Shown one piece after another: positions 949-36,282 of a DNA stretch of 64,000 nt. Origin of the DNA: Lachnospiraceae bacterium. GTDB lineage: Bacteria > Bacillota > Clostridia > Lachnospirales > Lachnospiraceae. The translations under genes were made by a program, and so were the position numbers. The notes under the pieces were generated by a model that saw nothing but the letters and a program-made list of their open reading frames with translations, was not told the DNA's origin and searched no databases. The stretch lies in assembly GCA_017387565.1 (NCBI GenBank), contig JAFOEY010000018.1:43374-107373 (forward strand). The letters are read 5' to 3'. The first letter of the stretch is position 1, and each line of letters opens with the position of its first letter.

Positions 949-968
949 AGCAATATCTCCATTTCTTT

Positions 969-7452: not shown

Positions 7453-7524
7453 CCAAGGGCTACCAAGCCCTTGGATAACAATACTAACGTGTTGGACGTA
7501 CTCCAACAGAAAGCGAGGTTAATA
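7453..7524 (+). promoter_or_regulatory. Double-hairpin leader, copy 1
   Basis: Stem 1 is CCAAGGGCT (7453-7461), loop ACCA, AGCCCTTGG (7466-7474). Stem 2 is TGTTGGA (7490-7496), loop CGTAC, TCCAACA (7502-7508). A purine-rich GCGAGG follows, then the ATG at 7525. Essentially the same 72 bases occur at 10307 and, with small changes, at 9581, each time directly before a different start codon. Stem 1 begins just after the integrase stop codon and may also act as a terminator or processing site, although no T-run follows. Confidence 0.8.
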
Positions 7525-17725: not shown

Positions 17726-17837
17726 TTGTATTACCATCGCTAATTTTTAATAACCTTCCACAATAAGGACAAACCTCATACCTTTTACTTATTAAGTTTC
17801 TTCATTCCAGCATTTATTTATCCACTACCAACTTTTC

Positions 17838-18506
17838 TTAATCCGGAGAGTCCAATCTTTCGTATTTTGTTTTTAATTCAAACAGTAATGCATTAATTGA
17901 ATCAGCATGTTCAAAATAAGGTTCTAATGCTAAGATCATTTGTTCTGTTTGCTGTCCAATCATTAACGCTGTTTGTTGATCCAAATTGCCATCATTATTT
18001 TCCCAACAATCCTGAAGCATTTTTTGAATTGAAATTCTGGCATGATCATAACCTTTTATCCTTCTTGCTCTTTGCAAAGAATCGATGTCAAGAAATTTTC
18101 TCAGCTCACTTATATATCTTCCATAGCCATATGCCATCGGGAATCTTTCTTCATTTCTCAATAGTTCTATGTAAAGAGTATTCAAATATTCTTTTACTTC
18201 ATTGAAGTTCTCATCATATCCCGTTACAGCCTCGTCAAACAATCTCATGACAACAACCGGATTATTATCTGTATTCTTGCAAAGTCTATCGATTTTACCT
18301 TTAAAATCTTTAATATTCTTCGCAAATAACTCGGCTTTTTCTGATTGTTCAAGTATTTTTCCAATTATCTCTTTTTCCTTTTCACGATTATCCTGTTCTA
18401 TTCGTTCCTCTTTCCGTGCTCTTTTTTCACCTAATAACTGGATTATTGCAATAATCAGGGCTAAAACAGCCAGAACAGTTTCAATTACAAGACTTAAAAT
18501 ATCCAT
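17838..18506 (-). CDS. Membrane-anchored coiled-coil protein of unknown function
   Basis: A 222-residue protein with one N-terminal membrane helix (about 4-24, L-V-I-E-T-V-L-A-V-L-A-L-I-I-A-I-I) followed by a charged coiled coil (about 28-70) and a helical cytoplasmic region. ATG 18506 is favoured over a TTG at 18515 that overlaps the AAGGAG site. No known domain is recognised. The neighbours give no functional clue; the gene stands alone between two repeat-rich gaps. Confidence 0.7.
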   Translation of the reverse strand: MDILSLVIETVLAVLALIIAIIQLLGEKRARKEERIEQDNREKEKEIIGKILEQSEKAELFAKNIKDFKGKIDRLCKNTDNNPVVVMRLFDEAVTGYDENFNEVKEYLNTLYIELLRNEERFPMAYGYGRYISELRKFLDIDSLQRARRIKGYDHARISIQKMLQDCWENNDGNLDQQTALMIGQQTEQMILALEPYFEHADSINALLFELKTKYERLDSPD

Positions 18507-18744
18507 AATTTCCAATTCTCCTTATTGATAATAATTATGATTATTATATTTTATTTTTGATATCAATACAACCATCTCAACATGCATTGACTTTACTTTG
18601 CATTAACATTCACGGCAACTTTGTGTTTTATCATTTATGCACCTTTCCCACCTTTTCCATTAATATCTTTTTATCTATTACATCTGCCATTTTTTAGACG
18701 CAAACATTGTGGCTATAATATACTAAATCATATAAATGTATTAT

Positions 18745-18857
18745 TTGATACCAGGGTCAAAAGGTATGACTTTAGGATTGCGAGAGCACAAAGTGCGTAG
18801 CAATCCGTTGGTATCATGGGGGCAAAATACCTTTTGACCCCAACATCATTATTATCG
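18745..18857. repeat. Dispersed multi-hairpin repeat, internally deleted copy
   Basis: It runs from GATACCAGGGTCAAAAGG to CCTTTTGACCCCAACATCAT, which form imperfect terminal inverted repeats. The central GGATTGC/GCAATCC hairpin is kept, but the GGGTCCC and CCGCCC segments present at 51,979 are missing. The 380-bp gap between 18,506 and 18,889 otherwise holds only AT-rich DNA, with no further gene seen. Confidence 0.85.
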
Positions 18858-18888
18858 GGGAATGTATTTCAAAATCGGGGGAAAACAT

Positions 18889-19579
18889 ATGTGTAAAGAA
18901 TTCATAGTTAATAAAAAGAAACTGATTCACATGCTTATCAGCAATACACCAATTGCGTACATCATAATGGATGATCGTAATCGCATCCATTATGTGAATG
19001 ACAGCTTTTTAAAACTTCGCGGTCTGGAATGGGATAAAACGATCGGAGAGCTCTGCTATAACATTTCAAACGGAGGAACACATTGCCCATATTGCGCCAT
19101 ATCACAGGCTATGGAAACCGGTTGTAAAACAATGCTGCAACGCAAGGATATTCTTCCTAACGGACAGGTCCGCTATATTGATGATTATGCAATTCCTTTA
19201 TATCGTGACAAGCGCACAGGTCCCCTGAGGTTATGTACTGGTTTGCGAAAGCAATATTGTAAAATTTGCAAATGATCTGATTCGTAAGGACTGTATCAGA
19301 ATGCAGCGCAATGTACCATCCGGAACATGTATATTTGATTTATACCAAAAAGAATTGTCAGATGGTTCAAATATTTATACGATGTATGTAATAATTAATC
19401 GTACGGAAGAAGTTACGATGCGTTCAAAACTCCAGCGCGGATATTTACAAATAGTAAATATCCTACAGGATATGTTACATAGCGACATGATTGATGCGGA
19501 TATTGTATCTCAGGAAAAACTGAACGAAATAAAAGACCAGGCGGAAGCAATTGCATGTAAATATGGATTGTATCATTAA
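18889..19579 (+). pseudogene. PAS-domain protein with a +1 frameshift
   Basis: The first ORF (ATG 18889 behind GGGGGAAAA) encodes a PAS domain of about 120 residues with I-A-Y-I-I-M-D and a C-P-Y-C cysteine pair. At about 19,225 the sense continues in the +1 frame as G-Y-V-L-V-C-E and runs to 19,579 with a helical C-terminus. The two frames together give about 229 residues. The first frame instead stops at 19,275. This is either a true inactivating frameshift or a sequencing error in CCCCTGAGG. No output domain (GGDEF, kinase or HTH) follows, so the intact ancestor was a sensor of unknown output. Confidence 0.7.
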
Positions 19580-19586
19580 ATGGTCT

Positions 19587-20369
19587 TTACATCTCAATCA
19601 TTATAACAGACAGATCATCTTTCGATTCACCTTCCAATGCAGCCTCCACAAATCTCTCCAGGACAACCTTTGGATCTTCATGACTAGTGAATAGTGCTGC
19701 AAATTCATCCGCTGGCAAATGACCTAAATGATCATGAATTCCATCGCTTGTCATAATAATCCTTTCCCCTGCGTTCAGTTCTGCCATTGTGACATCCAGC
19801 TCCTCTTCTATTATGTGCGGATTCATTCCCAGATGGGTTGTGAGCATAAACTGTTGTGGAGATCCGATAATATCATCCACAGATATCCCCTGTGGTGCAC
19901 CTGATATCTTTTTGTCATTTAGCAAATCCCTATATACGTTGCGGTCTGTTGTCAGGCAGATTGGCCCCATTTCATTCACCTTGTACAGTCTGCTGTTTCC
20001 AAGCTGGCAAATAAACATACCTTCCTCCAGCTTTGCCAAAAGAGTAAGAGTGCTGCCAGTTCTGCTACAACATGTGGTCAAATCACCGATCTCGTAAATC
20101 ACTCTGTTCTGCTCGAATATTTTGTCGCAGATTTTGTGAATTGTAAGCTCACTTCTGTCAAGGGACGCAAGGCCAAGGAGTGCAAGCCCAGATGCAACCT
20201 CCCCTCTGTTGCTGCCACCTATTCCATCAGCCACAGCCACCAGACAATGATCTGAAAGATCAAACTCATGATATCCACCTTTAATCACAGTATCATTAAT
20301 TAATACTGCATCCTCACAAACTCCTTTTTCATGAGATAATCCTTTTTTTACATAAGCATATGCCTTCAT
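19587..20369 (-). CDS. PP2C-family serine/threonine phosphatase
   Basis: A 260-residue PPM phosphatase that uses two metal ions to hydrolyse phosphoserine or phosphothreonine. Metal-binding Asp residues appear in E-D-A near 20, V-A-D-G-I-G-G (about 46-52), T-S-D-G-I-H-D (about 205) and K-D-D-L-S near the end. It is soluble. It is the last gene of the eight-gene operon and overlaps the AAA+ gene by four bases (ATGA). It most likely reverses phosphorylation by the kinase at 28,608-30,599, as in PrkC/PrpC or PpkA/PppA pairs. Confidence 0.93.
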   Translation of the reverse strand: MKAYAYVKKGLSHEKGVCEDAVLINDTVIKGGYHEFDLSDHCLVAVADGIGGSNRGEVASGLALLGLASLDRSELTIHKICDKIFEQNRVIYEIGDLTTCCSRTGSTLTLLAKLEEGMFICQLGNSRLYKVNEMGPICLTTDRNVYRDLLNDKKISGAPQGISVDDIIGSPQQFMLTTHLGMNPHIIEEELDVTMAELNAGERIIMTSDGIHDHLGHLPADEFAALFTSHEDPKVVLERFVEAALEGESKDDLSVIMIEM

Positions 20370-22240
20370 AATCTAATTCCCTCTACGTCTATAACTACCT
20401 GCGCCGAATCAGTATCAATTCCTTTTACAGTAATAATGGTATCATGTAACATATCATTATCAAGCATGTAAGCGGCCAGCGGATTTAGCAACAGCTTCTC
20501 CACTACGTTGCCTACGCCTCGGCCACCATTGTCAAGGTTTGAAAAGGATTTCTCCAAAAGCAAATGAACTGCCTCTTCCTCTATATGCAGTTCCACTCTG
20601 CTTTCATCCTTTAGCTTGTTCTGTATCTGATTAAGCTGGGATGTAAGAATGGAATTAGCGGCATCCTGCCTGATAAAATCGAATACTATAATATTTTCGC
20701 CAATTCGATTTAAAATTTCAGGACGTCCAAGCTCCAGCTTAAAGTAATTTGAAACACCATTTCTTACCTTTTTCTCCAGTTCCTCATAGCTGTCCTCTGA
20801 CGTTACCATCAGAGTCCGTCTTCCATGCTCATCTCTTTGATAAATTCCCAGATTACTTGTAAAAATGATTACAGATTCCGAAAAATAAACCGTATTTCCC
20901 TGTCCGTCTGTCATTCTTCCATCCTCTAGTATTTGAAGAAATTTGTCTAAAACTGTTCCGTGGGCTTTCTCAATCTCGTCAAACAAAAGTATCGAAAACG
21001 GATTCTCACGGACAGCATTTGTCAGCTGTCCACCTGATTCGTATCCCACATACCCCGGAGGCGCTCCAAGAAGCTTCTGGTCAGAATGCTCCTGTGAATA
21101 TTCACTCATATCGAATCTTATGCATCTGCTTTCATCACCAAATAATAGCTGAGCCAGTGCTTTTGCCATCTCTGTCTTTCCGGTTCCTGTGGGGCCTGCA
21201 AAAAATAATATTCCTTTCGGCTTTGTGTGAGATGAATGCTGCAGTCCGCTCATGCCTGCCGCTGCTCGTTTGATAACTTCAAGTGTCCTCTTAAGTGCAA
21301 CTGGCTGTCCTTTAACTCTGGCCTTTAAAATATCTTCTCCATTCTTGAGCTTATTCTGAAGTTCCTCATGAGTCCATGGATTTTCCTTTATTCCATATCT
21401 ATATAAATCCACAACCTCAGTCATTTCATGGATATGGTACTTCTCCTCTGTGCAAAGCTTCATCAGATTCCTAAGTTCCAGCTTTGTAAAGCCCTCCGTA
21501 ATTCCCACAAATCTATCCTTTATTTTCGTCAAATCTTCCGGTCTGCCCTCATATTCTAATATGTCGTTCTGATACACATCCCAATCAAAAAAATCACCGA
21601 AATGGTCATCATTCACCATATAATTTCTCTCATCTGTTGTAGGGGTGCCTACATGAATTGTTTTCACATATGGATTATCCAGATAAAACCATGCAGGAAT
21701 ATCGTTCAACTTATTTACGATTAATATGGTTAGATTTGTATTCGTGATATCGAATGCATCATTTCTGACTCTTCCAGCATTCTGCGCCCCTTTTAAAAGG
21801 TTTGTGAAGCTGTCCACCAGAGCCTGACTCATCTGCTCTGGAGACACCAGATATCTGGATGCCAAATCCATGATTACAACTGATGATACTTCCCTTTGCA
21901 TCATTGCATTCTTGGCATAATTAGCACCGCTATCCTCCCCTGAGAACAGTACGTTAAGGGCTTCAACGGAGGGTGCCTGACTTATTCTTTGAAACTGCTC
22001 AATTATGGTATCATCTGCGCTGTGTGAAACCGGCTGAAAACCGTCCAAACCATCAAACTTTACAATATTTTCATATCCCTTTTCCTTAAAAAACTGATAT
22101 AAATACATCGGAAGGGGCATATCTATTCCTATATCCGGATATGTAAACACATCCATAATATTCCCCTCAAGCACAACTATAGGTTTTAACTTATAAAACA
22201 GTTCCAATTCCTTATGCCATTTACAAACAAAGCTATTCAT
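20366..22240 (-). CDS. ClpB/ClpA-type AAA+ ATPase with degenerate N-terminal module
   Basis: A 624-residue protein. Residues about 320-624 are a canonical Clp/Hsp100 second nucleotide-binding domain: Walker A GPTGTGKT (about 350), pore loop GYVGYESGG, Walker B LLFDEIEKAH, sensor 1 F-T-S-N-L and a D2-small domain with G-x-R-G-V. Residues about 20-300 look like a first AAA domain that has lost its Walker A lysine loop. The disaggregase middle domain and Clp N-domain are absent, so this is not housekeeping ClpB. ClpP-binding tripeptides are not visible. It overlaps both neighbours, which implies coupled translation and a physical or functional complex. Probable role: remodelling of a partner in the operon. 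Confidence 0.88.
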   Translation of the reverse strand: MNSFVCKWHKELELFYKLKPIVVLEGNIMDVFTYPDIGIDMPLPMYLYQFFKEKGYENIVKFDGLDGFQPVSHSADDTIIEQFQRISQAPSVEALNVLFSGEDSGANYAKNAMMQREVSSVVIMDLASRYLVSPEQMSQALVDSFTNLLKGAQNAGRVRNDAFDITNTNLTILIVNKLNDIPAWFYLDNPYVKTIHVGTPTTDERNYMVNDDHFGDFFDWDVYQNDILEYEGRPEDLTKIKDRFVGITEGFTKLELRNLMKLCTEEKYHIHEMTEVVDLYRYGIKENPWTHEELQNKLKNGEDILKARVKGQPVALKRTLEVIKRAAAGMSGLQHSSHTKPKGILFFAGPTGTGKTEMAKALAQLLFGDESRCIRFDMSEYSQEHSDQKLLGAPPGYVGYESGGQLTNAVRENPFSILLFDEIEKAHGTVLDKFLQILEDGRMTDGQGNTVYFSESVIIFTSNLGIYQRDEHGRRTLMVTSEDSYEELEKKVRNGVSNYFKLELGRPEILNRIGENIIVFDFIRQDAANSILTSQLNQIQNKLKDESRVELHIEEEAVHLLLEKSFSNLDNGGRGVGNVVEKLLLNPLAAYMLDNDMLHDTIITVKGIDTDSAQVVIDVEGIRL

Positions 22241-22859
22241 GTTCCTTCTCCTTATGCCGCGCCTCTTTTACATGTTTTTTATATTCCTTTTTAAAATCCG
22301 GTTTATGTATTCCTGTAACTACTACACCATCCTGAGTTGAAAAACACTCAATGTAGTTTTTTCCATTCATTTGACTAAAATATTTCTGGTATTTTTCTCT
22401 GACTGACTCGTCAATAAAATGTACGACCTGATTATCTGAGCCCTTAAGGGGATGTCCGTTATTTTGAGCTTCAATATATGGGCCGTCTATTAAAACCGAA
22501 ATGTTTGAGACTATATCATCCTCATATTTGGCAAGTTCTGCTCTGACATTCCCACTAAACACCAAAATATCATTACAATACTCATGACACATTTCAATTA
22601 TTTCCATAAGGGCTTCCGGCTGTTCAAATGGCTCTCCCCCGGTAATGGTAAAACCTTCTACATTACAACCCGCGCTCTTCACAAATTGTAAAATAGCATT
22701 TCGCAATATACCTATAGAAATGTCCTTTATTCCAGTTGCATCCTGCAATTCCGGATTGGCACATCCCACACATTGCCTTTTACAACCTGCCATCCATATT
22801 ACAACTCTGTTTCCAGGCCCCAGATTGTTTACCGGAAATAACATTCTCGCAATTTTCAT
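22233..22859 (-). CDS. Radical SAM protein, NrdG-like (4Fe-4S single-cluster) activase
   Basis: A 208-residue radical SAM protein with C-K-R-Q-C-V-G-C (CxxxCxxC, residues 26-33) near the N-terminus and G-G-E-P-F (about 80), as in the anaerobic ribonucleotide reductase activating family. The N-terminal W-M-A-G-C motif also fits. It should bind one 4Fe-4S cluster and cleave SAM. The expected partner (NrdD or another glycyl radical enzyme) is not next to it or anywhere in this window, and the neighbours are an AAA+ ATPase and a zinc-ribbon/HEPN-like protein. It may modify one of these. ORF overlap with the ATPase gene supports a shared job. Confidence 0.88.
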   Translation of the reverse strand: MKIARMLFPVNNLGPGNRVVIWMAGCKRQCVGCANPELQDATGIKDISIGILRNAILQFVKSAGCNVEGFTITGGEPFEQPEALMEIIEMCHEYCNDILVFSGNVRAELAKYEDDIVSNISVLIDGPYIEAQNNGHPLKGSDNQVVHFIDESVREKYQKYFSQMNGKNYIECFSTQDGVVVTGIHKPDFKKEYKKHVKEARHKEKEHE

Positions 22860-22876
22860 TATCTGTAAATCCTTTA

Positions 22877-24619
22877 CTATTTACATACTTTATCGTAATA
22901 GTTTTTTAGGGTAGATAAAGTCTTCTCCCCAAAGACAGTTGCTTTAATAGCCAGATATTCATCCTTTGAAATATGCCTGCTCTCATTTTCTTCTATGTAT
23001 TTGTCTATCGCATCCTTTGAAGTATGCTTTGACGCATTGGCATGGGAACCTGCATTTCGGTTTTGTGTGGCAAGCTTTGCATTTTCAACAGCATTTCTAA
23101 ATTCGATTCTATGATTCCTGTCACTTCCATAGCCTGCCGCTTCCACAACCTTGTTAACTCTTTTGTACACCTTTTGACCATTACAAATATCATAAAAAAG
23201 CAGATAATTGCAGATTCGCCCCTGAGGAATACTGCCAAGCTTCACTCTTGCACTTTCCATTTCTTTTTCAAATTCCTCTCTCTGACTGGCATAAATAATC
23301 TTAAGCAGGTAAGTGCAAATATATTCTTCAAACGCCCGGCCAATGCAGTTAATAACAACTGAATAATCAATATCTTTGTTAATCTCATACTGAGCATTGC
23401 AGACCCTCTCATAAAAGGCTGCCTGCCATAAATAATCAACAATCTGCTGTCTATCCTTAACTACCTCATATTGGTATGAGCAGTCCTTTATATTTCCGGA
23501 GTTCATTCTCACCTTCAGGAAGTTTTTGATTTCCTGCTCTTTTGTCAACTCTTGTGCCTGTGGCACCTGCTCATCAATTCGTCTGTCATACTCTCCCTGG
23601 GTCTCACCGCTCTTTATTGCAAGTTCATCTATATTAATCCTCGCAATCACCTGTTCAAAGCTATTTAGGGATTCTTCCATCGAGCTCATTCTCTCCTCCA
23701 TGCTCTTATTTCCCTCTATAACCTGCATCATCATTGCATTTAACTTTTCAAATCTGTCTGTTAATCCAGTATGGCGTTGTTCCTGATTCTGAACTTCATT
23801 ACCTCCATCACGACCAAACGTCAACATAACATGTCTGTGATGATCTTCACCATTTCCAAACTCAAGACAGTCACCTGGTTTCAACGTATATTCCCGAGTG
23901 CCTTCTAATTCACCATCACTTTCAACATTTCCTGTTACAGTATTCATTCTAAACATTCTAATTTTGGACGCTTCGCCACGACATTTTCTGATTGTTATCT
24001 GTCCGCTTTTCAATGATATTACTGCGTTTTCAGTACTAATCACCTTAAACCGCTGCTGGAGTTCATCTGTATATCCATCAAAAAACAAGTCCTGATTTTC
24101 AATAAAGAATCTTCTTCCAACAATGATATCCTGTGCACCAATCCATATTTTTTTCCTGCTTCCAATCTTTCTTCCATGACCGGTAAGTATCTCTCCTTCG
24201 AAGTAATACTTATTCTCCACCTGAGTGTCTATGGCATCAAAAAACTGGGTGTTCCCCAATAAAGCCGCATCGGAAAATGCTTCTGTATCAGATGTGCCGG
24301 ATTTTCCCTCCTCATCATCCATTGGAATAAGTGTTGCATTGTTACAGTTCGGGCAAAGGGTAACTCCTGCATCTGCCACAGTATCGCAAATTAAGCATTT
24401 AAGCTTTCCACCATTATTTGTAGCCTCCTGCTGTCCCAAGTTTTTCGCCAAAGGCGCCTCTCTTTTCTCACCATCAAATTTTTCCTCAACCGTATAAAAA
24501 TCAAAATTTGATATATGCTCATGGCATTTATCACACCTTAGCTGGTCTGCTTTAACCCATTCCCCACAATTATCACATATTCTGTATTTATCGCCTGCGT
24601 TAAACAATCCCTTTTCCAT
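22877..24619 (-). CDS. Zinc-ribbon, FHA-like and HEPN-like multidomain protein
   Basis: A 580-residue protein. Two four-cysteine ribbons stand at the N-terminus (CDNC...CDKC, about 14-33; CLIC...CPNC, about 75-92). Residues about 140-275 look like a FHA-type beta sandwich, with I-I-V-G-R and a late strand before H-V-M-L-T-F, although the usual S-x-x-H is altered. A coiled coil follows (about 290-330). The C-terminal helical half ends with R-N-A-G-S-H near residue 521, matching the RxxxxH active motif of HEPN ribonucleases. FHA-like domains bind phosphothreonine, which suits the kinase in the same operon. The HEPN part could be the toxic effector. Its start overlaps the previous gene by 20 bases. 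Confidence 0.75.
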   Translation of the reverse strand: MEKGLFNAGDKYRICDNCGEWVKADQLRCDKCHEHISNFDFYTVEEKFDGEKREAPLAKNLGQQEATNNGGKLKCLICDTVADAGVTLCPNCNNATLIPMDDEEGKSGTSDTEAFSDAALLGNTQFFDAIDTQVENKYYFEGEILTGHGRKIGSRKKIWIGAQDIIVGRRFFIENQDLFFDGYTDELQQRFKVISTENAVISLKSGQITIRKCRGEASKIRMFRMNTVTGNVESDGELEGTREYTLKPGDCLEFGNGEDHHRHVMLTFGRDGGNEVQNQEQRHTGLTDRFEKLNAMMMQVIEGNKSMEERMSSMEESLNSFEQVIARINIDELAIKSGETQGEYDRRIDEQVPQAQELTKEQEIKNFLKVRMNSGNIKDCSYQYEVVKDRQQIVDYLWQAAFYERVCNAQYEINKDIDYSVVINCIGRAFEEYICTYLLKIIYASQREEFEKEMESARVKLGSIPQGRICNYLLFYDICNGQKVYKRVNKVVEAAGYGSDRNHRIEFRNAVENAKLATQNRNAGSHANASKHTSKDAIDKYIEENESRHISKDEYLAIKATVFGEKTLSTLKNYYDKVCK

Positions 24620-25499
24620 GATTTCTCCTACTTATTGTTGAAATTTCCCCGTTGTAATCCTCACCGTATTTTTTTTCGTATTCCTTTGGAGTTTTAGAAT
24701 TATATACTGATGAATTAACTACTCTGGCATATTTTTTGTCAGCCGGTTTGTGAAAAACCTCTCGTCTTTTTAACCTGTCGTCTCTATCAATCCTGTCCAT
24801 AAGCTCTCTATAGTCCTCACAGAAACCATGCATTTTCTCTTCAAGCTCTATGGCCTCATTTTCACTCACAACTCGGTCCTTGGAATCTGTAGCCACAACC
24901 TCAAAAGTAAATTTGCCATCGTGGGCAATCATTGAAAGAGCTGTCTCATCACCATACCGGTACAATCTGGCCATGGACACTCCTTTATCAATGGGTCTTT
25001 CTGCCATAACCTCATATCCCATGTCTGCTATCGTCTCCACAATTATTTCATTGACTCGTTCTTTGCAGTCAAGCTTATGAGCCTTTTCCATCAGTGTTTC
25101 TATCTGACTGTTTATCTCTTCTTTTTGAGCCTCCCAGTTCGTTGAATCAAACTCATAATCTAATGGTTCTGTATTCGCCGCATCTGCTGCCGCCTCATAG
25201 AGTGAAATCAATTCAAGAAATTCCTGCATCTCAAGCTCAATCATTATCTGATCTACTCCATCATCAAATTCCTTTTCCTGTCTGATCTGCTCCTCTATCT
25301 TCCGCTGTCTTTCCTCTTCTCTTCGTCTGCGTTCCTCTTCTTTTCGCCTTCTGGCTTCCTCTCTGCGCCTTCGTTCTTCCTCCAGCCTTTTCTCATGCCT
25401 GCGGCGCGCCTCTTCCTCGATTCTTCTTTGTTGCTCTTTTGCAATTTCTTCTTTCTCTTCAAAGGAAAGCTCAAAAAAATCGCATTTGGGTCCGCTCAT
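24600..25499 (-). CDS. Coiled-coil protein with N-terminal S-G-P-K-C motif
   Basis: A 299-residue protein. It opens with M-S-G-P-K-C-D-F-F-E-L-S, followed by a highly charged Glu/Arg coiled coil (about 18-75) of repeated E-E-R-R-R units. Residues about 100-235 form an alpha/beta domain with R-x-Y-R-Y-G-D-E-T-A and a following beta strand. The last 60 residues are basic. I have seen the S-G-P-K-C opening in other unexplained bacterial proteins, but I know no function. It is the fourth gene of the operon in transcription order and overlaps the zinc-ribbon gene. Confidence 0.8.
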   Translation of the reverse strand: MSGPKCDFFELSFEEKEEIAKEQQRRIEEEARRRHEKRLEEERRRREEARRRKEEERRRREEERQRKIEEQIRQEKEFDDGVDQIMIELEMQEFLELISLYEAAADAANTEPLDYEFDSTNWEAQKEEINSQIETLMEKAHKLDCKERVNEIIVETIADMGYEVMAERPIDKGVSMARLYRYGDETALSMIAHDGKFTFEVVATDSKDRVVSENEAIELEEKMHGFCEDYRELMDRIDRDDRLKRREVFHKPADKKYARVVNSSVYNSKTPKEYEKKYGEDYNGEISTISRRNHGKGIV

Positions 25500-25532
25500 A
25501 ATTCCCCCTCACTTTCCACAACTATCTCTTTA

Positions 25533-26858
25533 CTACAAGTTTTCATTCCAATCATCATACACCAGCTGAATTTCATCACAGTACTGCCTTATACTCTGGC
25601 TGTTAGTATGAAGAGCAAAGTGTTGTGCATCGTCCGATGTAAAGCCTGATGCATTACTTACAGTTATTGGCATATATACATCCACAAGACTCGGGCAGTT
25701 TTCAAATATGCATTCTCCATATACCTGGGTTGCCTGATTCATCCCACTATTCTGCCATGTAAAGCAGGTAAGATTAGGGCAGTTAACAAAGCTCCATCCC
25801 CCTATACATTCCACATATCCCGGGACACCAATCTCACTGATAGCTGTAGCCTCGAAACAGTTATCGCCTATAACTGTAACTATCATATTTCCGTCCTCAA
25901 AAGTCGTTACGGTTCTCTCTCCAAAGGACACACTTGCCAATGATGTACAATTTCTAAAAGCACAACTACCAATATTCGTTATATCTCCGGAGATGCTAAT
26001 GCTTTGCAGTGAACTGCATCCTTCAAAACAGCCGGAACCAATTTCCACAGCATCCTCTACGCCTGTGATATTTACTAATACTGCACAGTTTAGGAATACG
26101 CTGTCCTGAAGATACTTACAGTTATTCGGAAGCTCGACTGTTGTCAAAGCCGAGCAGTTTGCGAAGGCATTCCACTCAACCGTAACCTCATTAAAATCTT
26201 CTCCTCCCAGATAAACCTCTGTCAGGGCTGTACAGTTTGCAAACGCATTATTGTAAATGGCTTTCACTCCATGTGTAACACTCTCAACGTCCGCTCTCTT
26301 AGTTACTGATGTGAGAGCTGTATCATCCGCAAAACAATTTGCGCCTACAGATACAAGATATGCTGGCAATTCCACTGCAGTAAGCTGTGAACACTGTGCA
26401 AATGCGCTGTCTTCTATGTATACAACTGTATCAGGAATAACAATCTCTGTAAGGTACATATTATTGGCAAAGCAATCGGCTCCTATTGCATATACCGGCT
26501 TTTTGTCAATGATTGCAGGTATTTCAACCTTTGTCTCCACGCCTGTGTAACCGGTTATTTTTAATCCATTACTTCCATAACCTTCATATATAAAATTCTC
26601 CTCAGGGCTTTCTTCTCCTGTTGGTTTTTTCTGTTTCGCTGCAAGCTTTGCGCTCTTTACCATTGCAGCCTCCAGTTCAGAATCATCCATTTCCTTTGTG
26701 TAATCCACAGCTGGATTTGTTAACTCACCAGGCATAAGTGTAAGAACAAAAGTCTTTACATCTGTATTATCCGTAATAGAATAGAAAGAAAAATACAGAG
26801 ACACAAATAACGAAGCAATCAGCACGATAACACTTCTTATCAGCGTAAATTTTTTCAT
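25533..26858 (-). CDS. BspA-like leucine-rich-repeat protein, membrane anchored
   Basis: A 441-residue protein. A single N-terminal membrane helix (about 8-27) without a clear cleavage site is followed by a linker and about 11 LRR_5/BspA-type repeats (about 110-420), each with the I-G-x-x-C-F-x-N-C/A-S-x-L-x-x-V pattern. Such proteins usually sit outside the cell and bind other proteins or surfaces. The stop codon of the previous gene overlaps its ATG (TAATG), and GGAGGTGAC serves as ribosome site. In this operon it may be the external sensor or adhesion part. Cysteines lie at the repeat turn, as in the family. Confidence 0.88.
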   Translation of the reverse strand: MKKFTLIRSVIVLIASLFVSLYFSFYSITDNTDVKTFVLTLMPGELTNPAVDYTKEMDDSELEAAMVKSAKLAAKQKKPTGEESPEENFIYEGYGSNGLKITGYTGVETKVEIPAIIDKKPVYAIGADCFANNMYLTEIVIPDTVVYIEDSAFAQCSQLTAVELPAYLVSVGANCFADDTALTSVTKRADVESVTHGVKAIYNNAFANCTALTEVYLGGEDFNEVTVEWNAFANCSALTTVELPNNCKYLQDSVFLNCAVLVNITGVEDAVEIGSGCFEGCSSLQSISISGDITNIGSCAFRNCTSLASVSFGERTVTTFEDGNMIVTVIGDNCFEATAISEIGVPGYVECIGGWSFVNCPNLTCFTWQNSGMNQATQVYGECIFENCPSLVDVYMPITVSNASGFTSDDAQHFALHTNSQSIRQYCDEIQLVYDDWNENL

Positions 26859-28597
26859 TATTTGTCACCTCCATTTACGTTCCTGGAAAAGAAAACAAAA
26901 AGCAGATAGATTACGTATACAACAGCAGCAACCACCACACCCATCGCGCAGGTAAAAGTATCAACCCCCATCTTTACCAGATAAAACTCCTCCAGCATCA
27001 GCAAACACCCTAAAATTATGGTATTAACTGCGAATCCCGAAAAACTTGAGACGATAGTTTTGGCCCTATCCATTCGTTCCTTCTTTCTGTGCAAGAGTAA
27101 GATGACAACACATCCCCAGAAACCTTCCAGCGCAATTGTCATTAGTATAGAATAAAAATCTGCATCAGAATTATTAATAACGAAAGGAATGAATACTACC
27201 TCTATCATTATTAAAACCATATGGGATGCTGTAAGGCGGTAGGTGGTATGTTGAGTAGAGGTATGTGTACTCGCTTTAGTAACTTTTCTTTCTTCCCCAG
27301 ACGTTGTCTCGACCCTTCCGGCCGCCTCTTCTCTTTTTTTTCTTTCTTTGACGAGTTTATCAAATTCCTTTGATAGTACAGGATTCTTTTCGTCATAATT
27401 GCAGACAGTGCTTACTATTTCCCTGTACTCAACACCTTCCCAGAATTCCTTATTCTTACACCTTTCAGAAATCGTATATAATACAAGCTCATCCATAAGC
27501 TGGTGGTAAAAGGTGTCCTTGAATTCTACACAGAGTTGACGATACATTCCTCTCCACCGCACATTACCTGACCTCTCGCATGCAGAGGTTATATCCTTTC
27601 TATACAAGCGCATCCATACTCTGAATGAAGAATTCACATCTGTACATCTTAACGCCCAGCCCCCTGTAAACATCCCCTCAGGCAAAGGAATGTTTCTCCA
27701 TAAAACAAAGGAATTATATGACCCCATGCTTTCCATCCTAATAACAAACTCAAGTGCCCTTTTTACACCTTTTGCCAATTCCTCGCCAAATTGGCTATTT
27801 CCTTTTTTCAAAAACAAACTATTCAGTTTCTCGGCAATCCACATTCCATTTGCTTCTGTTACACCTAGAGAACCGATTTTGCTAAGACAGTACTCTTCAT
27901 AAGAAAGTTCCATCGTTTTATTTGCAGACATCTGATTGTAACTTCTCTTTACAAGTTTATCATCGACTTTTATTTTCAGTTCCTGGTTCAATCTATAATC
28001 AAGTATTTTGTCTGCCATCAGCCCATAGCCTGATTCTGATGCAGAATTATTTGCTTTTATAAGGTCATCAAGATATGACTTATCCACCTTTTCTATTTCG
28101 TTAGCTTCTATGTGCGCAACAACAAAAATGAATGCCAGCTTTTTATCTATTTTGTCATAATTGTTATATTCACTAAATACCCTTATGCTTGTTAAAGATA
28201 AATCAGTTTTTTTTATCTTCAGATAAACATCGTACGTATTATTTGATAACTTACCTGTTCTTTTTGCGAGAACATCGCGCTGCTTTTTCAAGGCTTCCAG
28301 ATTCGTTTTTTCACTTTGTAATTTCCTGCTTTTTTTATTCAGCTTTTCTTGTGCTGTATTGTTTATCGGCAGCGCCTGTCCCCCGATATTGAACAGTGTT
28401 TCCAGATTTGAAACATTTTCAAATTCCGAATGAACTTCTTCTATTTCACTCTCTATTTTTTGCACTGTGCCAGTCTGTTTCTGAATTTTTCTGTCTAGTC
28501 CTTTTACATTGGCCATGTATTGCAATTCCAATGTGTTATTATTCTCGAAATCAGCTAAAAAAGCTTTTCTTATCTCTATGTATTCTATCTTTTCCAT
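26858..28597 (-). CDS. Large coiled-coil protein with four C-terminal membrane helices
   Basis: A 579-residue protein. Residues 25-125 form a long coiled coil (Q-K-I-E-S-E-I-E-E-V repeats). The middle is a helical soluble region with Trp and Cys residues. The end has about four hydrophobic helices (about 455-570). A Lys/Glu-rich linker with K-K-R-E-E-A-A-G-R precedes them. I do not recognise a family. Topology with both ends inside would present the large N-terminal part to the cytoplasm, where the kinase and AAA+ ATPase are. It lies 10 bp after the kinase gene. Confidence 0.75.
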   Translation of the reverse strand: MEKIEYIEIRKAFLADFENNNTLELQYMANVKGLDRKIQKQTGTVQKIESEIEEVHSEFENVSNLETLFNIGGQALPINNTAQEKLNKKSRKLQSEKTNLEALKKQRDVLAKRTGKLSNNTYDVYLKIKKTDLSLTSIRVFSEYNNYDKIDKKLAFIFVVAHIEANEIEKVDKSYLDDLIKANNSASESGYGLMADKILDYRLNQELKIKVDDKLVKRSYNQMSANKTMELSYEEYCLSKIGSLGVTEANGMWIAEKLNSLFLKKGNSQFGEELAKGVKRALEFVIRMESMGSYNSFVLWRNIPLPEGMFTGGWALRCTDVNSSFRVWMRLYRKDITSACERSGNVRWRGMYRQLCVEFKDTFYHQLMDELVLYTISERCKNKEFWEGVEYREIVSTVCNYDEKNPVLSKEFDKLVKERKKREEAAGRVETTSGEERKVTKASTHTSTQHTTYRLTASHMVLIMIEVVFIPFVINNSDADFYSILMTIALEGFWGCVVILLLHRKKERMDRAKTIVSSFSGFAVNTIILGCLLMLEEFYLVKMGVDTFTCAMGVVVAAVVYVIYLLFVFFSRNVNGGDK

Positions 28598-28607
28598 CTT
28601 TTTCCCT

Positions 28608-30599
28608 CTACATTGGTTTTTGTGTAAGGTCAGGTCTTACCTGTAAATCAGCTACCTCCATGCACCATGCATAGAATGGTATCTTCATACGTCCATTTTC
28701 CATACATCTTTTTCCAAGCTCTGCTGCTCTTCCCAAATCAGTTTTGCTCACATGACCAAGATACTCCATGAACTTTGCATACTCGGTATATATCTTTCCA
28801 TCAAATTCAAAGGTGGCTTTCTCCTGCAGATGATATGATAACCTGAGGAGATTAATCAAATCCTCTGTCTTTTCCTTTTCCTCATCCGGATTCGTACTGT
28901 TCATTCTTACTTCCCATTTCTTAATACAATCCATATCTTCGTGGCTGACTGACCACTTTTCACCCTTGGCTGCTATAGACTCTGACAGGTAATTATCCTG
29001 AAAGATATAAAGCGTCTGGAAAAATCTGTCGTTTCTGTTCTCTTTTTTTATCTGATTGTAAGTCAAAAGTTTTATATTGTCGCCATTTTTCAGTTTCTCA
29101 CTTACAACAGCAAATAATGTTTTCCCAAGCTCTTTCTTATTTTTGTATAATTTGCCACAATGGAAAAGATTCTCTTTGAACTCGTCTGAGCTAAATCTTT
29201 CTACTATTCGTTTTTCAAAAATACTCTCGGCTTTTTCAGGATTCTTCTTCATCTGGTTGCCGACATTAACCAAAAGCTGAGCAACATCAGGGCCTAATCT
29301 CTCAAAGCTTTTCACCCACTGTGGATTGTTCATCACATTATTGATGGTTTCCCTCCAGTTTTTCACAAAGGCCTCCACCATTTCGGCTTCTGAGCTGACC
29401 TGAATGTCCACATTATTATAAGAAATATACATTTTATTTCTCTTATCAGCATTATTGACAACTGGCTGTGGGACAGCTTCCTGGGGTTTTCCATTGCCAT
29501 GTTTCATCCTGGCAGCCTTCTCATATTCTCCAGCTTCCACATATGTAATCCACTGGGCTACTTCCTTATCTCCCCAACGATACTCCTTTGACTCTGAATA
29601 ATAATCCCCTCTGTATAATAAACCCTCAAAAAGTCTTACATAGCAATCCGGAAGTCCCTCCGGAAGCAGTATTCCATATACAATCTTTCCCTTTTCCTGA
29701 TTTTTCTTCAAATAATCCTTTTCTCTTGGTGATGCGGTGTCATATCTTAATTCTTCCACATAAGGAGAAACACCTGCTATCAACTCCACCATGGTCATTC
29801 CTAAGGCATACGCATCCGTTTTCGAATTTGCCTTATACTTATTCATATGACCCTGGAACATCTCAGGCGCCTGATAGCCTCTTGTAAACATTGATGCGGT
29901 GGCACTTTCGTCCTTTTTTGTATCTGAGGCTCCAATCTTTTCGGCAGCTATGGCTCCTCCTCCAAAGTCAATGATTACATATCTTTCATCCTGATTGATT
30001 CCCTTATATCTCATAATGTTTGCCGGTTTAATGTCAGAATGATATATATTTCCCTTATGGATTTCCATAAGAGCCTGATTCATATCTCTAAGCACACTCA
30101 CAAAAATGCTTGTAAAATCGGCTATTTTGTTCTTGTATTTCTCGAAGAACATAAAGTCCTTCTGCAATTCCTGATACTGCTCCATTACCACCATGAAATA
30201 TGCCCCATCGTCAGTCTCTCCGGCATCAAGGACATTGGCAATGTTAGGATGGTTTATCCTCTTCAATTTCTCATTGATCATTCTGATTTTTTCTATTAAT
30301 TTATCATTACAATCATAAATTTTTGCAATATAGTTTTTTGATGACTCTGTAGAATTACATAGATAAATACGCCCCTGCCCACCCGACTTTATTGGCTTGG
30401 ATTTTGCCGGCACATAATACTGCCCTAATCTAAACATTGAATCATTAACTACAGATGAACTGGAGCTTCTTTGTGATATAGCATTAGAATTTCCCACCAG
30501 ATCAATACCTTTATCTATTCCTTCAGTTGTAGAATATCGGTTATTTTCTTCCAAAGTTTCTGTATCTACATATTCGGTTTTACTGTAATTACTTTCCAT
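28608..30599 (-). CDS. Hanks-type serine/threonine protein kinase with long C-terminal extension
   Basis: A 663-residue protein. The kinase domain (about 60-345) has a glycine loop S-G-G-Q-G-R-I-Y, Lys in Y-I-A-K-I-Y, catalytic loop H-S-D-I-K-P-A-N-I (a non-RD kinase, since Arg is replaced by Ser), D-F-G-G-G metal motif, and A-P-E-M after the activation loop. The C-terminal 300 residues are helical, with no membrane segment or PASTA repeat, so it is unlike PrkC. The first 60 residues are Ser/Thr-rich and could be self-phosphorylated. It is first in the operon, with a promoter region at 30,627-30,698 and GGGGGAGAAGG before the ATG. Its likely partners are the FHA-like protein and PP2C. Confidence 0.92.
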   Translation of the reverse strand: MESNYSKTEYVDTETLEENNRYSTTEGIDKGIDLVGNSNAISQRSSSSSVVNDSMFRLGQYYVPAKSKPIKSGGQGRIYLCNSTESSKNYIAKIYDCNDKLIEKIRMINEKLKRINHPNIANVLDAGETDDGAYFMVVMEQYQELQKDFMFFEKYKNKIADFTSIFVSVLRDMNQALMEIHKGNIYHSDIKPANIMRYKGINQDERYVIIDFGGGAIAAEKIGASDTKKDESATASMFTRGYQAPEMFQGHMNKYKANSKTDAYALGMTMVELIAGVSPYVEELRYDTASPREKDYLKKNQEKGKIVYGILLPEGLPDCYVRLFEGLLYRGDYYSESKEYRWGDKEVAQWITYVEAGEYEKAARMKHGNGKPQEAVPQPVVNNADKRNKMYISYNNVDIQVSSEAEMVEAFVKNWRETINNVMNNPQWVKSFERLGPDVAQLLVNVGNQMKKNPEKAESIFEKRIVERFSSDEFKENLFHCGKLYKNKKELGKTLFAVVSEKLKNGDNIKLLTYNQIKKENRNDRFFQTLYIFQDNYLSESIAAKGEKWSVSHEDMDCIKKWEVRMNSTNPDEEKEKTEDLINLLRLSYHLQEKATFEFDGKIYTEYAKFMEYLGHVSKTDLGRAAELGKRCMENGRMKIPFYAWCMEVADLQVRPDLTQKPM

Positions 30600-30626
30600 A
30601 AACCTTCTCCCCCTGAAAGTGAATAG

Positions 30627-30698
30627 ATTATACTATTACTTTGTCTATCAAATGTAAAGTACTTTTTTATTATATAATAGTAAACTTTGTCTATTCAA
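30627..30698 (-). promoter_or_regulatory. Promoter region of the kinase operon with repeated ATAGACAAAGT
   Basis: On the minus strand TTGAAT (30693-30698), 18 bp, TATAAT (30669-30674) makes a good sigma-A promoter. A second TATAAT lies at 30627-30632. The sequence ATAGACAAAGT occurs twice, 46 bp apart, just before each -10, and may be an operator repeated for each start. No riboswitch or attenuator structure is evident. Confidence 0.6.
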
Positions 30699-30768
30699 TT
30701 TATATTTCAAGTTAACAAAACAATATTTATTTGCCTTACCGCAATTTGTATTTTGAAACACCGTACTC

Positions 30769-32310
30769 TCAATCAAAGCTCTGCACAAGGGTCGTCTTAT
30801 CTCCTGTTTTCTCCCCAAGGAAAGGTGTGCCCCCCAACTCTGTGACGGTCAGTGTGCTTTCATAGTCATACTCATTGAATTCGGATCGCTGATCAAGGGC
30901 AACCACCCCGGTCAGGCCGGAACCGTTGCTGAATTCCCACCACATTGAATAGGCGTACACCGCCCCCTTCTCCGTCATGCCGAGATAGACCAGATACCCT
31001 CTGAAACTCATAACGGTATCCGTCTTCGGTTGGTAGGAGGTTAGGAAAAAGTTTTCACTGTTGCCATCCATCAGTGTCAGGGAATAGGATGTCTCCATGC
31101 CGTCAACAGACCTACTTCCACTCCAATCACAGTTCAAAAGATTGTCCGGCATGGTGTACCGCTGAAAAGCGATGGTATCCCACAGACCCATCTGCTCTCC
31201 ACTTTTCGTAACAGCGCAGATGTCAGGGAGTCCGTCTGCAGAGGACCGGATAAGATCTTTCACATTGGTCACTCCCAAGAGAGGACCTCCACCGCAAACG
31301 TATCCGCTCCGCAGGCAGGGCAGAACGTCAATATAGTCCACCCGTCCCTCCTCAGTCAGTAAGAATACAAAAGGCTCGTCAGATTCCCCAATCTCGCCGC
31401 AGATGATTTTAGTATAGTTGCCATACAGCCCGTTTACAACCATATCCCTGTCATAGAGCTCGGCGTCTATGTTTACGGGACCATTTTCACCCAGCAATGT
31501 TTCCAACCGAGACGTCTGCTGCACCCGGATAGTAACAGTATCACCTTGCCGCTTCACCGTCAGATAATCCCCCAGCTGTACGGCTTCCACATGGTCATCA
31601 TCCTCAATAAAATTCAGTGCTAAATCCCGACTCAGATATTCTGTCCCTGCGATACTCCCGATGGGGGCAATGACATGGAGAACACCATCGTCCAGATAGA
31701 GGGGCAAATCAAGGCTCAGATTACGCTCCGAGATTGTCAGTATTCGCAGCTTCTGATAGGCGCCTGCATTAATGTTCTCAAAATCCTCCCAAGCAGCGTG
31801 GTAAGCATCGTCAAAATCCTTCGCAACTGCACGGCGCAGGACATCCATGTAATCCGACTCTGTCATATCCTGAATTTTGAGGATGTCTTCGTTGTTCAGC
31901 CACACACCATCTGCCGTATCATAACTGTAAGCGGTATACCCCTCAAAGCCGCCATAAAAATAAGCGTATTTTATCACCAGGGATAGGACATCCCCGCTGT
32001 GGAAACACTCATACTCCACGTTGCTGCAATAGGGAATCTCCTTATTTTGGATGCTCTCCAGACACTTTTTTGCAGTTTCGCCGTAGATAGATGCGATCTC
32101 CTGATTGATAGCTGCAGCATCGGCTGTATCATCCTCAATCTGCGGCACATGAAAAAAATAATTGTATGTGAAACCATCATCGGAAGTTCCTTCGCCTTCT
32201 TCACTGTAAAGCTCAGTAACGACAACTTCCTTCGTTTTTTCAGGCGGGGATTCTTCTGTCTCCTGCGTTACAAAATCCTCGGTGAGTTCCTCATCGTTGC
32301 TCTCCTGCTG
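30769..32310 (-). pseudogene. 5'-truncated DUF3298/DUF4163-like extracytoplasmic protein
   Basis: An open frame of 514 codons whose upstream end hits a TAA at 32311 before any start. The only usable start is a GTG at 32148 (459 residues) without a good ribosome site. Residues after 32,200 resemble the DUF3298/DUF4163 domain of RsiV-like and PdaC-like proteins (paired Y-F-F-H-V-P-Q-I and a later I-K-Y-A-Y-F-Y-G-G-F-E-G-Y). The signal peptide or lipobox is missing, so the gene is probably dead. It is distinctly richer in G and C than the operon on its right. Confidence 0.6.
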
Positions 32311-32323
32311 TTACGTTACTTTT

Positions 32324-33194
32324 TCAATATGCTTCTCCTGCAATCTCCTGAAGCAATCTCAGCAAATCGTTGGCATAGATACCACTATAACTGTTGGTAA
32401 ACTTTTCGCCATCCTCCTGCCATGTGACCTGGATCTTACTGTCGGTTGCGTCCATAAGGTCCGGCTCCGGCGGGCTGTAGGCGGTCAGTTCGTGTTCCAT
32501 CCATTCTTAGCCCCTGAAAGCCGCAGCTTTCCTCACCGATCTCAATCCGCTCACCAGTCTCCGTGTCCGTATAATCGCAGTACAGGCGGGGTGCATCGGA
32601 TTCCTGTCCGGTGAATGTTATCGTAAAATCAAAACAGCCATCGTAGTTCATGGCACTTTGATGCCAGGAAAATTCCACCAATTCTGCCATTTCGGAAACC
32701 TCCCGTATTTCCTCCGATTTGTTTTCAGCGGGCTTGCCGTACTCCACCCGGTCCAGAACAACCTGCTGCCTTATGCTGTCTTTCCCCTCTTTTGAGACAG
32801 TGATATCCAGATACATCCTGCGGTTTTCCACATAGAGGCTCTCAATGGTACTGGAGACGCTCCCATCCTCGCTTTCAAATTTCTTATCATAGAACTGAAG
32901 CTCCGTCTTAACGTTAAGATTATCCCCCTCAAAGTCGAAGGAAAAATTGCCGCTGTATACCAGTTCCTGCTGGTAGCAAAGATCAAATGTGTTTCCTTCT
33001 TTTCCGCCTATGTTCGCGCTCCACACGCTATCCTCCGCCATCCACTCGGCATTCAACAGCTCCAGCATAGGTGCCGCCGGGTTTTCCATGCCAGGGCCGT
33101 CCACGATCCGCTCCAATACAAAATGTCGGTACGTGAAAATTGCTCCTATGAGAAAAATTACAATGACAGTTATGAGTATCATCCGCTTTTTCAT
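32324..33194 (-). pseudogene. Frameshifted membrane-anchored hypothetical protein
   Basis: From ATG 33194 a protein opens with a basic M-K-K-R, a membrane helix and a beta-rich extracytoplasmic domain of about 220 residues. Near 32,510 the sense passes into another frame: E-L-T-A-Y-S-P-P-E-P-D continues for about 60 residues to a TGA at 32,324, while the original frame ends at 32,436 in unrelated low-complexity residues. The C-terminal part matches the style of the first part, so a single indel is likely. Family unknown. Relatives are probably lipoproteins encoded next to two-component systems. Confidence 0.6.
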
Positions 33195-33229
33195 AAAACC
33201 TCCTTCTTCTCGAATCGTTATTTCGCGAT

Positions 33230-33659
33230 TTCTCTATTTTATCCACCGTCCGGTATAAGAACAAGTCGCGGATATCCGCTGTTTCTGTGCACTCGCTGAT
33301 GAGCAGCAGATTTCCATATCGTTTTATATAGGCGCCCACAACTGCAGCCCCACCAAGAAGCCTGTTGCGTTTGTTAGCATCCGTCTCCATATCATACTGT
33401 GCCAGCATCCGGTCAATCAAGTCAATCTGTCCGGCTTACAGCTATGTGGAATACGGCATTTGAACAACATGGTAACAAGAGCTATCACGACACAAAGTAG
33501 CAGCCATACAACGGTCAGAAAGTATCCGATGGCATGGTGATAATCGTCCATCCACACAACTGCATCTGCAGGAAAAATGAATACGAGCTGATGTAAGTCA
33601 TTGGTCAGCACCAGCAAATCAAGGATTTCTAAGCATCGGCTCGACATAGCAACACACAA
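33230..33659 (-). pseudogene. Remnant of a 7TM histidine kinase
   Basis: Two short frames preserve parts of a sensor kinase with an N-terminal seven-helix (HisKA_7TM-like) region. One (33659-33417) has L-T-N-D-L-H-Q-L-V-F then Y-F-L-T-V-V-W, a typical end-of-7TM block. The other (33420 leftward) has K-R-N-R-L-L-G-G-A-A-V-V-G-A-Y-I-K-R, which sits between the membrane part and the ATPase in such kinases. The DHp His box and the HATPase domain are absent, so a large internal piece has been deleted. It directly abuts the RlmD-like gene, marking the edge of the foreign block. Confidence 0.55.
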
Positions 33660-35086: not shown

Positions 35087-35128
35087 ATTCTTCTCTTTAA
35101 TATCATTCATTCTACATAATTAAATATA

Positions 35129-35153
35129 ATGATGTTGGGGTCAAAAGGTATTT
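35129..35153. repeat. Dispersed multi-hairpin repeat, fragment (head only)
   Basis: AATGATGTTGGGGTCAAAAGG then TATTTTC: the first 25 bases of the family, ending two bases before the stop codon of the YhaM-like gene. Confidence 0.75.
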
Positions 35154-35154
35154 T

Positions 35155-36099: not shown

Positions 36100-36282
36100 T
36101 TTACTCCATTCTGTTGTCTTCATGAGCAACATTTATTATATTGATTAAATTACATTTTTATAGATTTTGCTATAAAAACAATCTTCTTTCTTATAAACAT
36201 CATTTGCTTTTACTTAGCATTCAGGCAGATTTGGTAGCTATATTGTTAATAAGCCATTGCCATTATAAATACCATTATAATA

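Follow-up and report, generated by a model that had tools for sequence, protein, structure and literature searches.

We analysed a stretch of 64,000 nucleotides from a Lachnospiraceae bacterium (GenBank assembly GCA_017387565.1, contig JAFOEY010000018.1, positions 43,374 to 107,373; hereafter the window). It carries a minus-strand operon of eight genes at 30599–19587, named K1 to K8 in the order of transcription. Six of these genes are conserved as a set in distant bacteria and on plasmids, at some loci beside nucleases, and this pattern suggests a stress or antiviral switch. Read 5′ to 3′, the gene junctions measured +10, −1, +33, −20, +17, −8 and −4 nt. The open reading frame (ORF) calls, the junctions and the intact key motifs bore out the tightly packed eight-gene transcript of a preliminary description of this DNA, with four overlapping junctions, and confirm that the operon is real. 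The end given there, 30698, lies outside the coding sequence and corresponds to the first of the hexamers in a promoter-like match. Such matches numbered 47, against 37.5 expected (standard deviation 6.0), and the promoter, terminator and ribosome-site scans were at chance or slightly above.

Proteins encoded by the operon

Most of the protein types named in the preliminary description were found again. K1 (28608–30599, 663 aa) is a Ser/Thr protein kinase (Pkinase, E 3.6e-23) with the P-loop GGQG, the IAK lysine, DFG, and an HSD motif that makes it non-RD. By a simple hydropathy scan, used for all transmembrane (TM) segments reported here, K1 had no TM segment, and some relatives' kinases had C-terminal ones. 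K8 (19587–20369, 260 aa) is a PP2C-type phosphatase (SpoIIE, E 2.8e-06) with the motifs DGIGG, GST, SDG and DDLS; the NCBIfam model for Stp1 PP2C matched it at 4.3e-27, under the model cut-off.

The coiled-coil membrane protein is K2 (26858–28597, 579 aa), whose C-terminus holds four predicted TM segments. The BspA-type leucine-rich repeat (LRR) protein is K3 (25533–26858, 441 aa; LRR_5, E 8.9e-50), an accessory protein with one N-terminal TM segment. Among the 37 other loci compared below, K2 had no relative and K3 had none except one generic LRR match (L007). Single-sequence hhalign found no similarity between K2 and six candidate partners.

K4 (24600–25499, 299 aa) is the S-G-P-K-C coiled-coil protein. 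Its MSGPKC start leads into long helices, and its C-terminal domain is of alpha/beta type (GYEV ... C.DY). The exact SGPK was present in 9 of 25 aligned relatives. The structure model (predicted local distance difference test, pLDDT, 78.5) placed a strand directly after the N-terminal SGPK, then the long helices and the C-terminal alpha/beta part. This model matched neither solved structures (best E 0.2) nor viral model structures (best E 0.12).

K6 (22233–22859, 208 aa) is, by domain scans, an NrdG-type radical S-adenosylmethionine (SAM) protein with a single 4Fe-4S cluster (Fer4_12, E 1.6e-26). Its CX3CX2C, GGEP and GSxNQ motifs are intact, in agreement with the NrdG-like assignment made earlier.

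K7 (20366–22240, 624 aa) is a Clp-type ATPase (AAA_2, E 1.9e-50, plus ClpB_D2-small). Its ClpB-D2-like module has Walker A and B, GYVG, RPE..NR and GGR, and no IGF-type loop was found by pattern. The only P-loop found lies in this second module, at residue 349. The K7 family conserves a G-N-x-x-D stretch near the start, and a 17-row profile of the family's N-terminal half matched VCP-like AAA domains in their C-terminal part (positions 202–264, E 3.5e-05). Because of this match, we infer a degenerate first AAA module in front of the intact ClpB-D2-like one, and the single-module ATPase of the preliminary description does not stand.

K5 (22877–24619, 580 aa) combines zinc ribbons, a candidate FHA-like middle and an orphan C-terminal half with RNAGSH. 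It had been described as a zinc-ribbon/FHA-like protein with this motif, and here the earlier claim holds in part. RNAGSH is present, at residue 521, and zinc-ribbon models of Pfam reach K5 under their cut-offs; a profile made without the window matched its first zinc ribbon only (E 1.8e-05). The FHA-like part gained no support from sequence, as FHA homology was detected neither by the Pfam scan, nor by the window-free profile, nor by hhalign (4.9% probability). A true FHA domain is found at the same gene in the relatives L011, L189 and L194.

The RNAGSH fits the HEPN RNase pattern, Rx4-6H with a polar residue following the R, as given in PMC3710099. By chance, RNxxxH arose in 460 of 20000 shuffles of the K5 C-terminal half (2.3%) and the wider HEPN pattern in 2387 of 20000 (12%). 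A single-sequence model of K5 places RNAGSH at the end of a helix, and the pLDDT of 39.2 makes this model untrustworthy. As a candidate HEPN RNase, this half of K5 is an unproven lead. It had no relative in plasmids, none in viral contigs searched with six peptide patterns, nothing above chance in Pfam and no match in the other 37 loci. Against solved structures it gave one poor match (E 2.2), and in 391 genomes of the class four weak matches besides its own. Whole K5 had no match in any other of 246 genomes of the order. Of the four weak matches to the C-terminal half, two (L200 and L202) encoded seemingly unrelated proteins, and tblastn of L201/L203 was uninformative.

The six-gene core, its partners and its genomic setting

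The final table held 38 loci: nine from an initial genome scan, nine from plasmids, 19 from a survey, and the window. The initial scan with the ATPase found at least nine near-full-length relatives among the 80 loci listed, and those nine were in records of Clostridia, Gallionella, Bradyrhizobium, Burkholderia, Gaiella, Streptomyces and Sphingomonas. In the survey, a profile of the ATPase N-terminal half was run against 398 genomes of the phylum and 397 of the family, and matched 13 and 8 of them, respectively, the window's own included in both.

Neighbours were counted on the same strand within 12 kb of the Clp gene, in the 19 non-window survey loci. Near the Clp gene there was a radical SAM gene in 19/19 loci, a member of the MSGPK family (the family of K4) in 17/19, a zinc-ribbon/FHA gene in 15/19, a kinase in 14/19 and a PP2C in 12/19. 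Kinase and PP2C were absent from five loci: L188, L190 and L191, whose contigs end nearby, and L192 and L239, of the PIN-nuclease type. Maps in which overlapping ORFs were filtered by length missed a kinase in L187 and a radical SAM gene in L194, both of which are present in the profile count. The hidden Markov models for the neighbours were trained partly on L187–L198. In the only fully independent loci, L234–L240, radical SAM and MSGPK-family genes were found in 7/7, the zinc-ribbon/FHA gene in 6/7, the kinase in 6/7 (general kinase profile) and PP2C in 5/7.

Ordinary ClpB loci served as a control, in a similar but separate count over both strands of each fetched locus. Of the 71 loci, one had a related radical SAM gene, one a kinase, and none an MSGPK-family, PP2C or zinc-ribbon/FHA match. 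In the same count, of the nine family-ATPase loci six had a radical SAM gene, four a kinase, five an MSGPK-family gene, one a PP2C and one a zinc-ribbon/FHA gene. Profiles made without the window selected only the corresponding ORFs among the 417 window ORFs, five times out of five (E 1.4e-239 for Clp, 5.3e-62 for radical SAM, 1.3e-29 for PP2C and 3.3e-12 for the MSGPK family). For 20 of the 38 loci, pairwise distances were computed for the Clp, radical SAM and MSGPK-family proteins, and those of the three proteins were correlated (r 0.87–0.90; 0/5000 permutations), to which shared host descent may add.

Two loci from the window's own family, L234 and L235, have the order of the window: kinase, MSGPK, zinc-ribbon/FHA, radical SAM, Clp, PP2C. 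L235 has one additional gene, with a TM segment, between Clp and PP2C. The eight genes had been proposed as a single system. As a set, six of them are conserved, being found together in 11/19 survey loci, and among the 38 loci K2, K3 and the C-terminal half of K5 were seen in the window alone. Thus six of the eight genes form a conserved core: the kinase, the MSGPK-type gene, the zinc-ribbon/FHA position, the radical SAM gene, Clp and PP2C. The core is spread over Bacillota, Pseudomonadota, Actinomycetota and Cyanobacteriota.

The radical SAM gene was found in 35 of the 38 loci, the exceptions being the Clostridia loci L005–L007. In L006 and L007, a gene for a 246–248 aa protein of no named family comes after the Clp relative.

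By our own profiles, 13/38 loci had PIN or helicase-nuclease genes. A PIN protein with a superfamily 1 (SF1) helicase was found in seven loci, and PIN_4 in L088 and L192. Compact plasmid loci such as those of Photobacterium toruni and Polaromonas have five genes: helicase, PIN, MSGPK-like, Clp and radical SAM. Six loci encoded a DUF4011 helicase-type protein, in five of them within the same ORF as the kinase and in an Aristaeella plasmid separately. In L009 and L013, Pfam recognized the DUF4011 helicase together with an MTES_1575 nuclease. PADLOC (2023 release) matched the L087 partners to PDC-S37 (1308 bits) and Hhe (545 bits), the L009 partner to PDC-S37 (478 bits) and the L088 partner to MkoA (340 bits). 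In L234, genes for DUF4236, PglZ (893 bits), GmrSD, WYL and a restriction-type helicase come after the core on the same strand, and in L237 a phage-type integrase adjoins it. DUF4236 proteins were found near the core in L085 (10082–11803), L187 (6979–7821) and L234 (7597–8535), and the annotation of L087 shows another where that stretch ends; DUF4236 is possibly a recurring seventh partner. The loci show that the extra parts are interchangeable: PIN with SF1 helicase, DUF4011 helicase with MTES_1575 nuclease, or membrane/extracellular modules.

The ATPase was found over at least 80% of a Bradyrhizobium query in 20 plasmid records, 12 of them predicted conjugative; 13 of the 20 were Rhizobium or Moellerella, some of them near copies. 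In a Geminocystis (cyanobacterial) plasmid (L093, 3566–9281), double-GTPase (DO-GTPase) genes lie between the radical SAM and MSGPK genes. Of the phage records, 149 matched K7, none over 80% of its length. Viral contigs, searched with two general AAA patterns, gave no full-length alignment to the ATPase among the 80 loci listed, which does not establish absence. By DNA search only, 1472 of 5426 complete E. coli genomes partially matched the Moellerella gene, none over more than 80%.

We compared the operon with eight same-genus genomes by DNA search (query 17838–36132, up to 37 candidates scored per genome). The neighbour gene at 33660–36132 was matched in 8/8. Inside the operon, besides dispersed repeats, only ~244 bp of the Clp AAA region were matched, at 67–72%, and these matches are taken as ordinary Clp genes. 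Synteny ends at 33661–33669 in the three genomes inspected. The other boundary is not fixed: the closest relative's match stops at window position 17779, 194 bases before its contig end.

Two short plus-strand ORFs (18862–19579) face the operon end, the first resembling a PAS-domain fragment by eye. Next to them lies a dispersed repeat of ~80 bp (about 18771–18856), which two same-genus genomes matched dozens of times. Further away, ~15 kb from the operon, a type I restriction-modification locus (1–4019, minus strand) encodes an HsdR-type protein and an N6 DNA methylase, the latter truncated where the window begins. A large serine recombinase (5698–7446, plus strand; Resolvase, Recombinase and zinc beta ribbon) is followed by small ORFs. 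The small ORFs at 7471, 9540 and 10325 share the repeat peptide NTNVLDVLQQK.

Possible function of the core

PP2C phosphatases oppose Ser/Thr kinases, FHA domains read phosphothreonine, AAA modules with a GYVG loop thread proteins, and NrdG-type enzymes cleave SAM. Given the recurring core, its carriage on plasmids and its defence-like partners, we favor, with about even confidence, a mobile, phosphorylation-gated Clp/radical-SAM remodelling machine of conflict type, most likely anti-phage or anti-plasmid. The proposed kinase/PP2C switch is modelled on the type VI secretion system (T6SS) threonine-phosphorylation pathway and on KKP. PP2C would keep the kinase pathway off, until infection or envelope damage shifts the kinase/PP2C balance. 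The resulting phospho-mark would recruit the zinc-ribbon/FHA adaptor and the MSGPK-family protein to the Clp motor, which would dismantle or assemble a partner and thereby free an effector. The radical SAM enzyme may install or repair a radical-dependent modification on a core partner, licensing the complex. In the window, K3 could be the sensor, on the outside, and the effector could be K2 with its four TM segments, the K5 half that contains RNAGSH, or both; at other loci the extra genes would be sensor or effector.

More tentatively, the core may represent a new class of immune/stress machine. Here, a Clp-type unfoldase whose first AAA module is inactive would need both the kinase/phosphatase balance and radical SAM as its licence to arm interchangeable nucleolytic or membrane effectors, with an MSGPK-family protein, of no matched solved fold, as scaffold. 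The window would hold an LRR-sensor, four-TM and possibly HEPN RNase variant.

Several observations weigh against the conflict machine. The profiles used matched no nuclease or helicase in 24/37 other loci, including most Firmicute loci, and L195–L198 have the six core genes with no obvious effector. L005–L007 carry close Clp relatives (~50% identical to K7) without radical SAM, MSGPK or kinase matches. PIN-type loci lack the exact SGPK while retaining the radical SAM gene, and the licensing role of the latter is a guess. PADLOC left K2 to K6 and K8 unmatched even at E 0.5, and matched K1 and K7 only via their kinase and AAA domains; for example, its MkoA model gave 74.6 bits on K1, over the kinase region only (residues 59–279). 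The flanks of L234, L237 and L239 were picked by eye for PADLOC and are examples, not a rate. Last, several Firmicute loci have envelope-type neighbours (SH3_3, FN3, Cu_amine_oxidN1), which fit envelope signalling equally.

An accessory envelope-stress or surface-signalling system is possible, though rather unlikely. In such a system membrane or extracellular modules (LRR, SH3, FN3) would sense the wall or surface, kinase and PP2C would relay the signal, and the Clp/radical-SAM core would adjust envelope proteins, with the nucleases as a side branch. It would agree with the TM segments in K2 and K3, in the kinases of L012, L194, L195, L198, L237 and L240, in neighbours in L189, L193 and L194, and in the gene between Clp and PP2C in L235, as well as with the SH3_3, FN3/RodZ_C and Cu_amine_oxidN1 domains in neighbours. 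However, the same scan found no TM segment in the kinases of L087, L189, L193, L234 and L235, and the patchy presence (8/397 family genomes), the plasmid carriage and the helicase-nuclease partners are unusual for envelope homeostasis.

It is improbable that the operon is a radical-enzyme maintenance unit, in which phosphorylation would control the activation, by K6, of a ribonucleotide reductase or glycyl-radical enzyme and Clp would clear damaged subunits. K6 shares CX3CX2C and GSxNQ with two further NrdG-like genes elsewhere in the genome, but its score of 81.9 bits with the NrdG model TIGR02491 is under the cut-off of 126.1. An RxxGY-type motif is absent from all eight proteins of the operon, its sole match being in a neighbouring ORF. 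Members of the family are also found in Bradyrhizobium and Acinetobacter, genera known as aerobes.

It is very improbable, and largely refuted, that the operon regulates a contractile apparatus, or is left over from one, along the lines of the T6SS pathway of PpkA, PppA, Fha and ClpV. Similar activities are found together here, and Fha1 is needed for ClpV1 recruitment (PMC3953482), but the genome has no VipB/TssC match and K7 scored 231.4 bits with the ClpV model TIGR03345 (cut-off 884.95). The reading that unrelated signalling genes became neighbours by chance, which would suit the two genes and the half of K5 unmatched in other loci, has next to no probability and is refuted for the six core genes by their conserved set and order in many loci, the low ClpB control counts and the correlated distances.

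If the conflict machine is real, NrdG-type radical SAM chemistry and a Clp unfoldase would be parts of a phospho-regulated conflict system in four phyla, at some loci on plasmids. Three families not named as such in the libraries used would thereby gain a function, namely the MSGPK protein, the Clp variant and the NrdG-like paralogue, and the five- and six-gene loci would be a ready set for testing.

Comparison with known systems

The preliminary description knew of no described system with this set, and we know of none either. No description was found among the papers listed by literature searches, which covered open-access journals without preprints and were in part swamped by unrelated papers. 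Passages of PMC10853773 and PMC13092281 contain no such system, and none of five terms looked for occurs in PMC12839542. A description elsewhere is possible.

The likeness to the T6SS threonine-phosphorylation pathway, drawn in the preliminary description, is fair in the sense of "works like". Both cluster a kinase, a PP2C, a protein at the FHA position and a Clp-type AAA+ ATPase. In the pathway, PpkA and PppA act on Fha1, and ClpV1 recruitment requires Fha1 (PMC3953482). The operon differs in that K7 is far under the ClpV cut-off and in adding MSGPK-family and NrdG-type radical SAM genes. A sheath gene (TssC/VipB) had 0 matches in the genome, with a positive E. coli control. To our knowledge, the T6SS pathway has no radical SAM protein.

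KKP is a kinase-phosphatase module with an FHA domain that acts as an anti-phage switch, in which a phage protein inhibits the phosphatase and stimulates toxic kinase activity (PMC11341870). It shares with the core a Ser/Thr kinase balanced by PP2C, an FHA domain and a phosphorylation-based toxin/antitoxin logic. As described there, KKP has two kinases, one with FHA and one with a cold-shock domain, and a PP2C, without Clp ATPase or radical SAM. The window has one kinase and no such fusion, and lies outside KKP. For MADS, K1 gave 73.6 bits with the MAD6 kinase model NF047741, under its cut-off of 460.

Hhe, PDC-S37 and Mokosh (MkoA) are related to the helicase-nuclease or helicase and PIN genes that stand beside the core in the 13 loci with such partners; the six-gene core is additional to those systems. 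The operon itself has no DUF4011 helicase-nuclease, the genome no DUF4011 match, and the window no MkoA-type SF1 helicase.

The vWA-MoxR and GTPase-centred conflict systems also combine an AAA+ ATPase, an adaptor and swappable nuclease or signalling effectors, and radical SAM, FHA, PP2C and kinase domains are mentioned for them (PMC7159879). According to passages of this paper, their core genes are others, whereas the ATPase of the window is Clp-type; no vWA or MoxR match to Pfam was found in the ten window proteins scanned. The ClpB disaggregase and the NrdG activase belong to the same superfamilies as the second module of K7 and K6, respectively, both of which are far under the equivalog cut-offs (277.3 against 1232.1 bits for K7 with the ClpB model).

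Any novelty, as far as the literature search reached, lies in the core gene set and not in the domains; all of these but K4 belong to known superfamilies. The window shares this set in full: the family's Clp N-terminal half, a nearby radical SAM gene, and MSGPK, zinc-ribbon, kinase and PP2C genes on the same strand.

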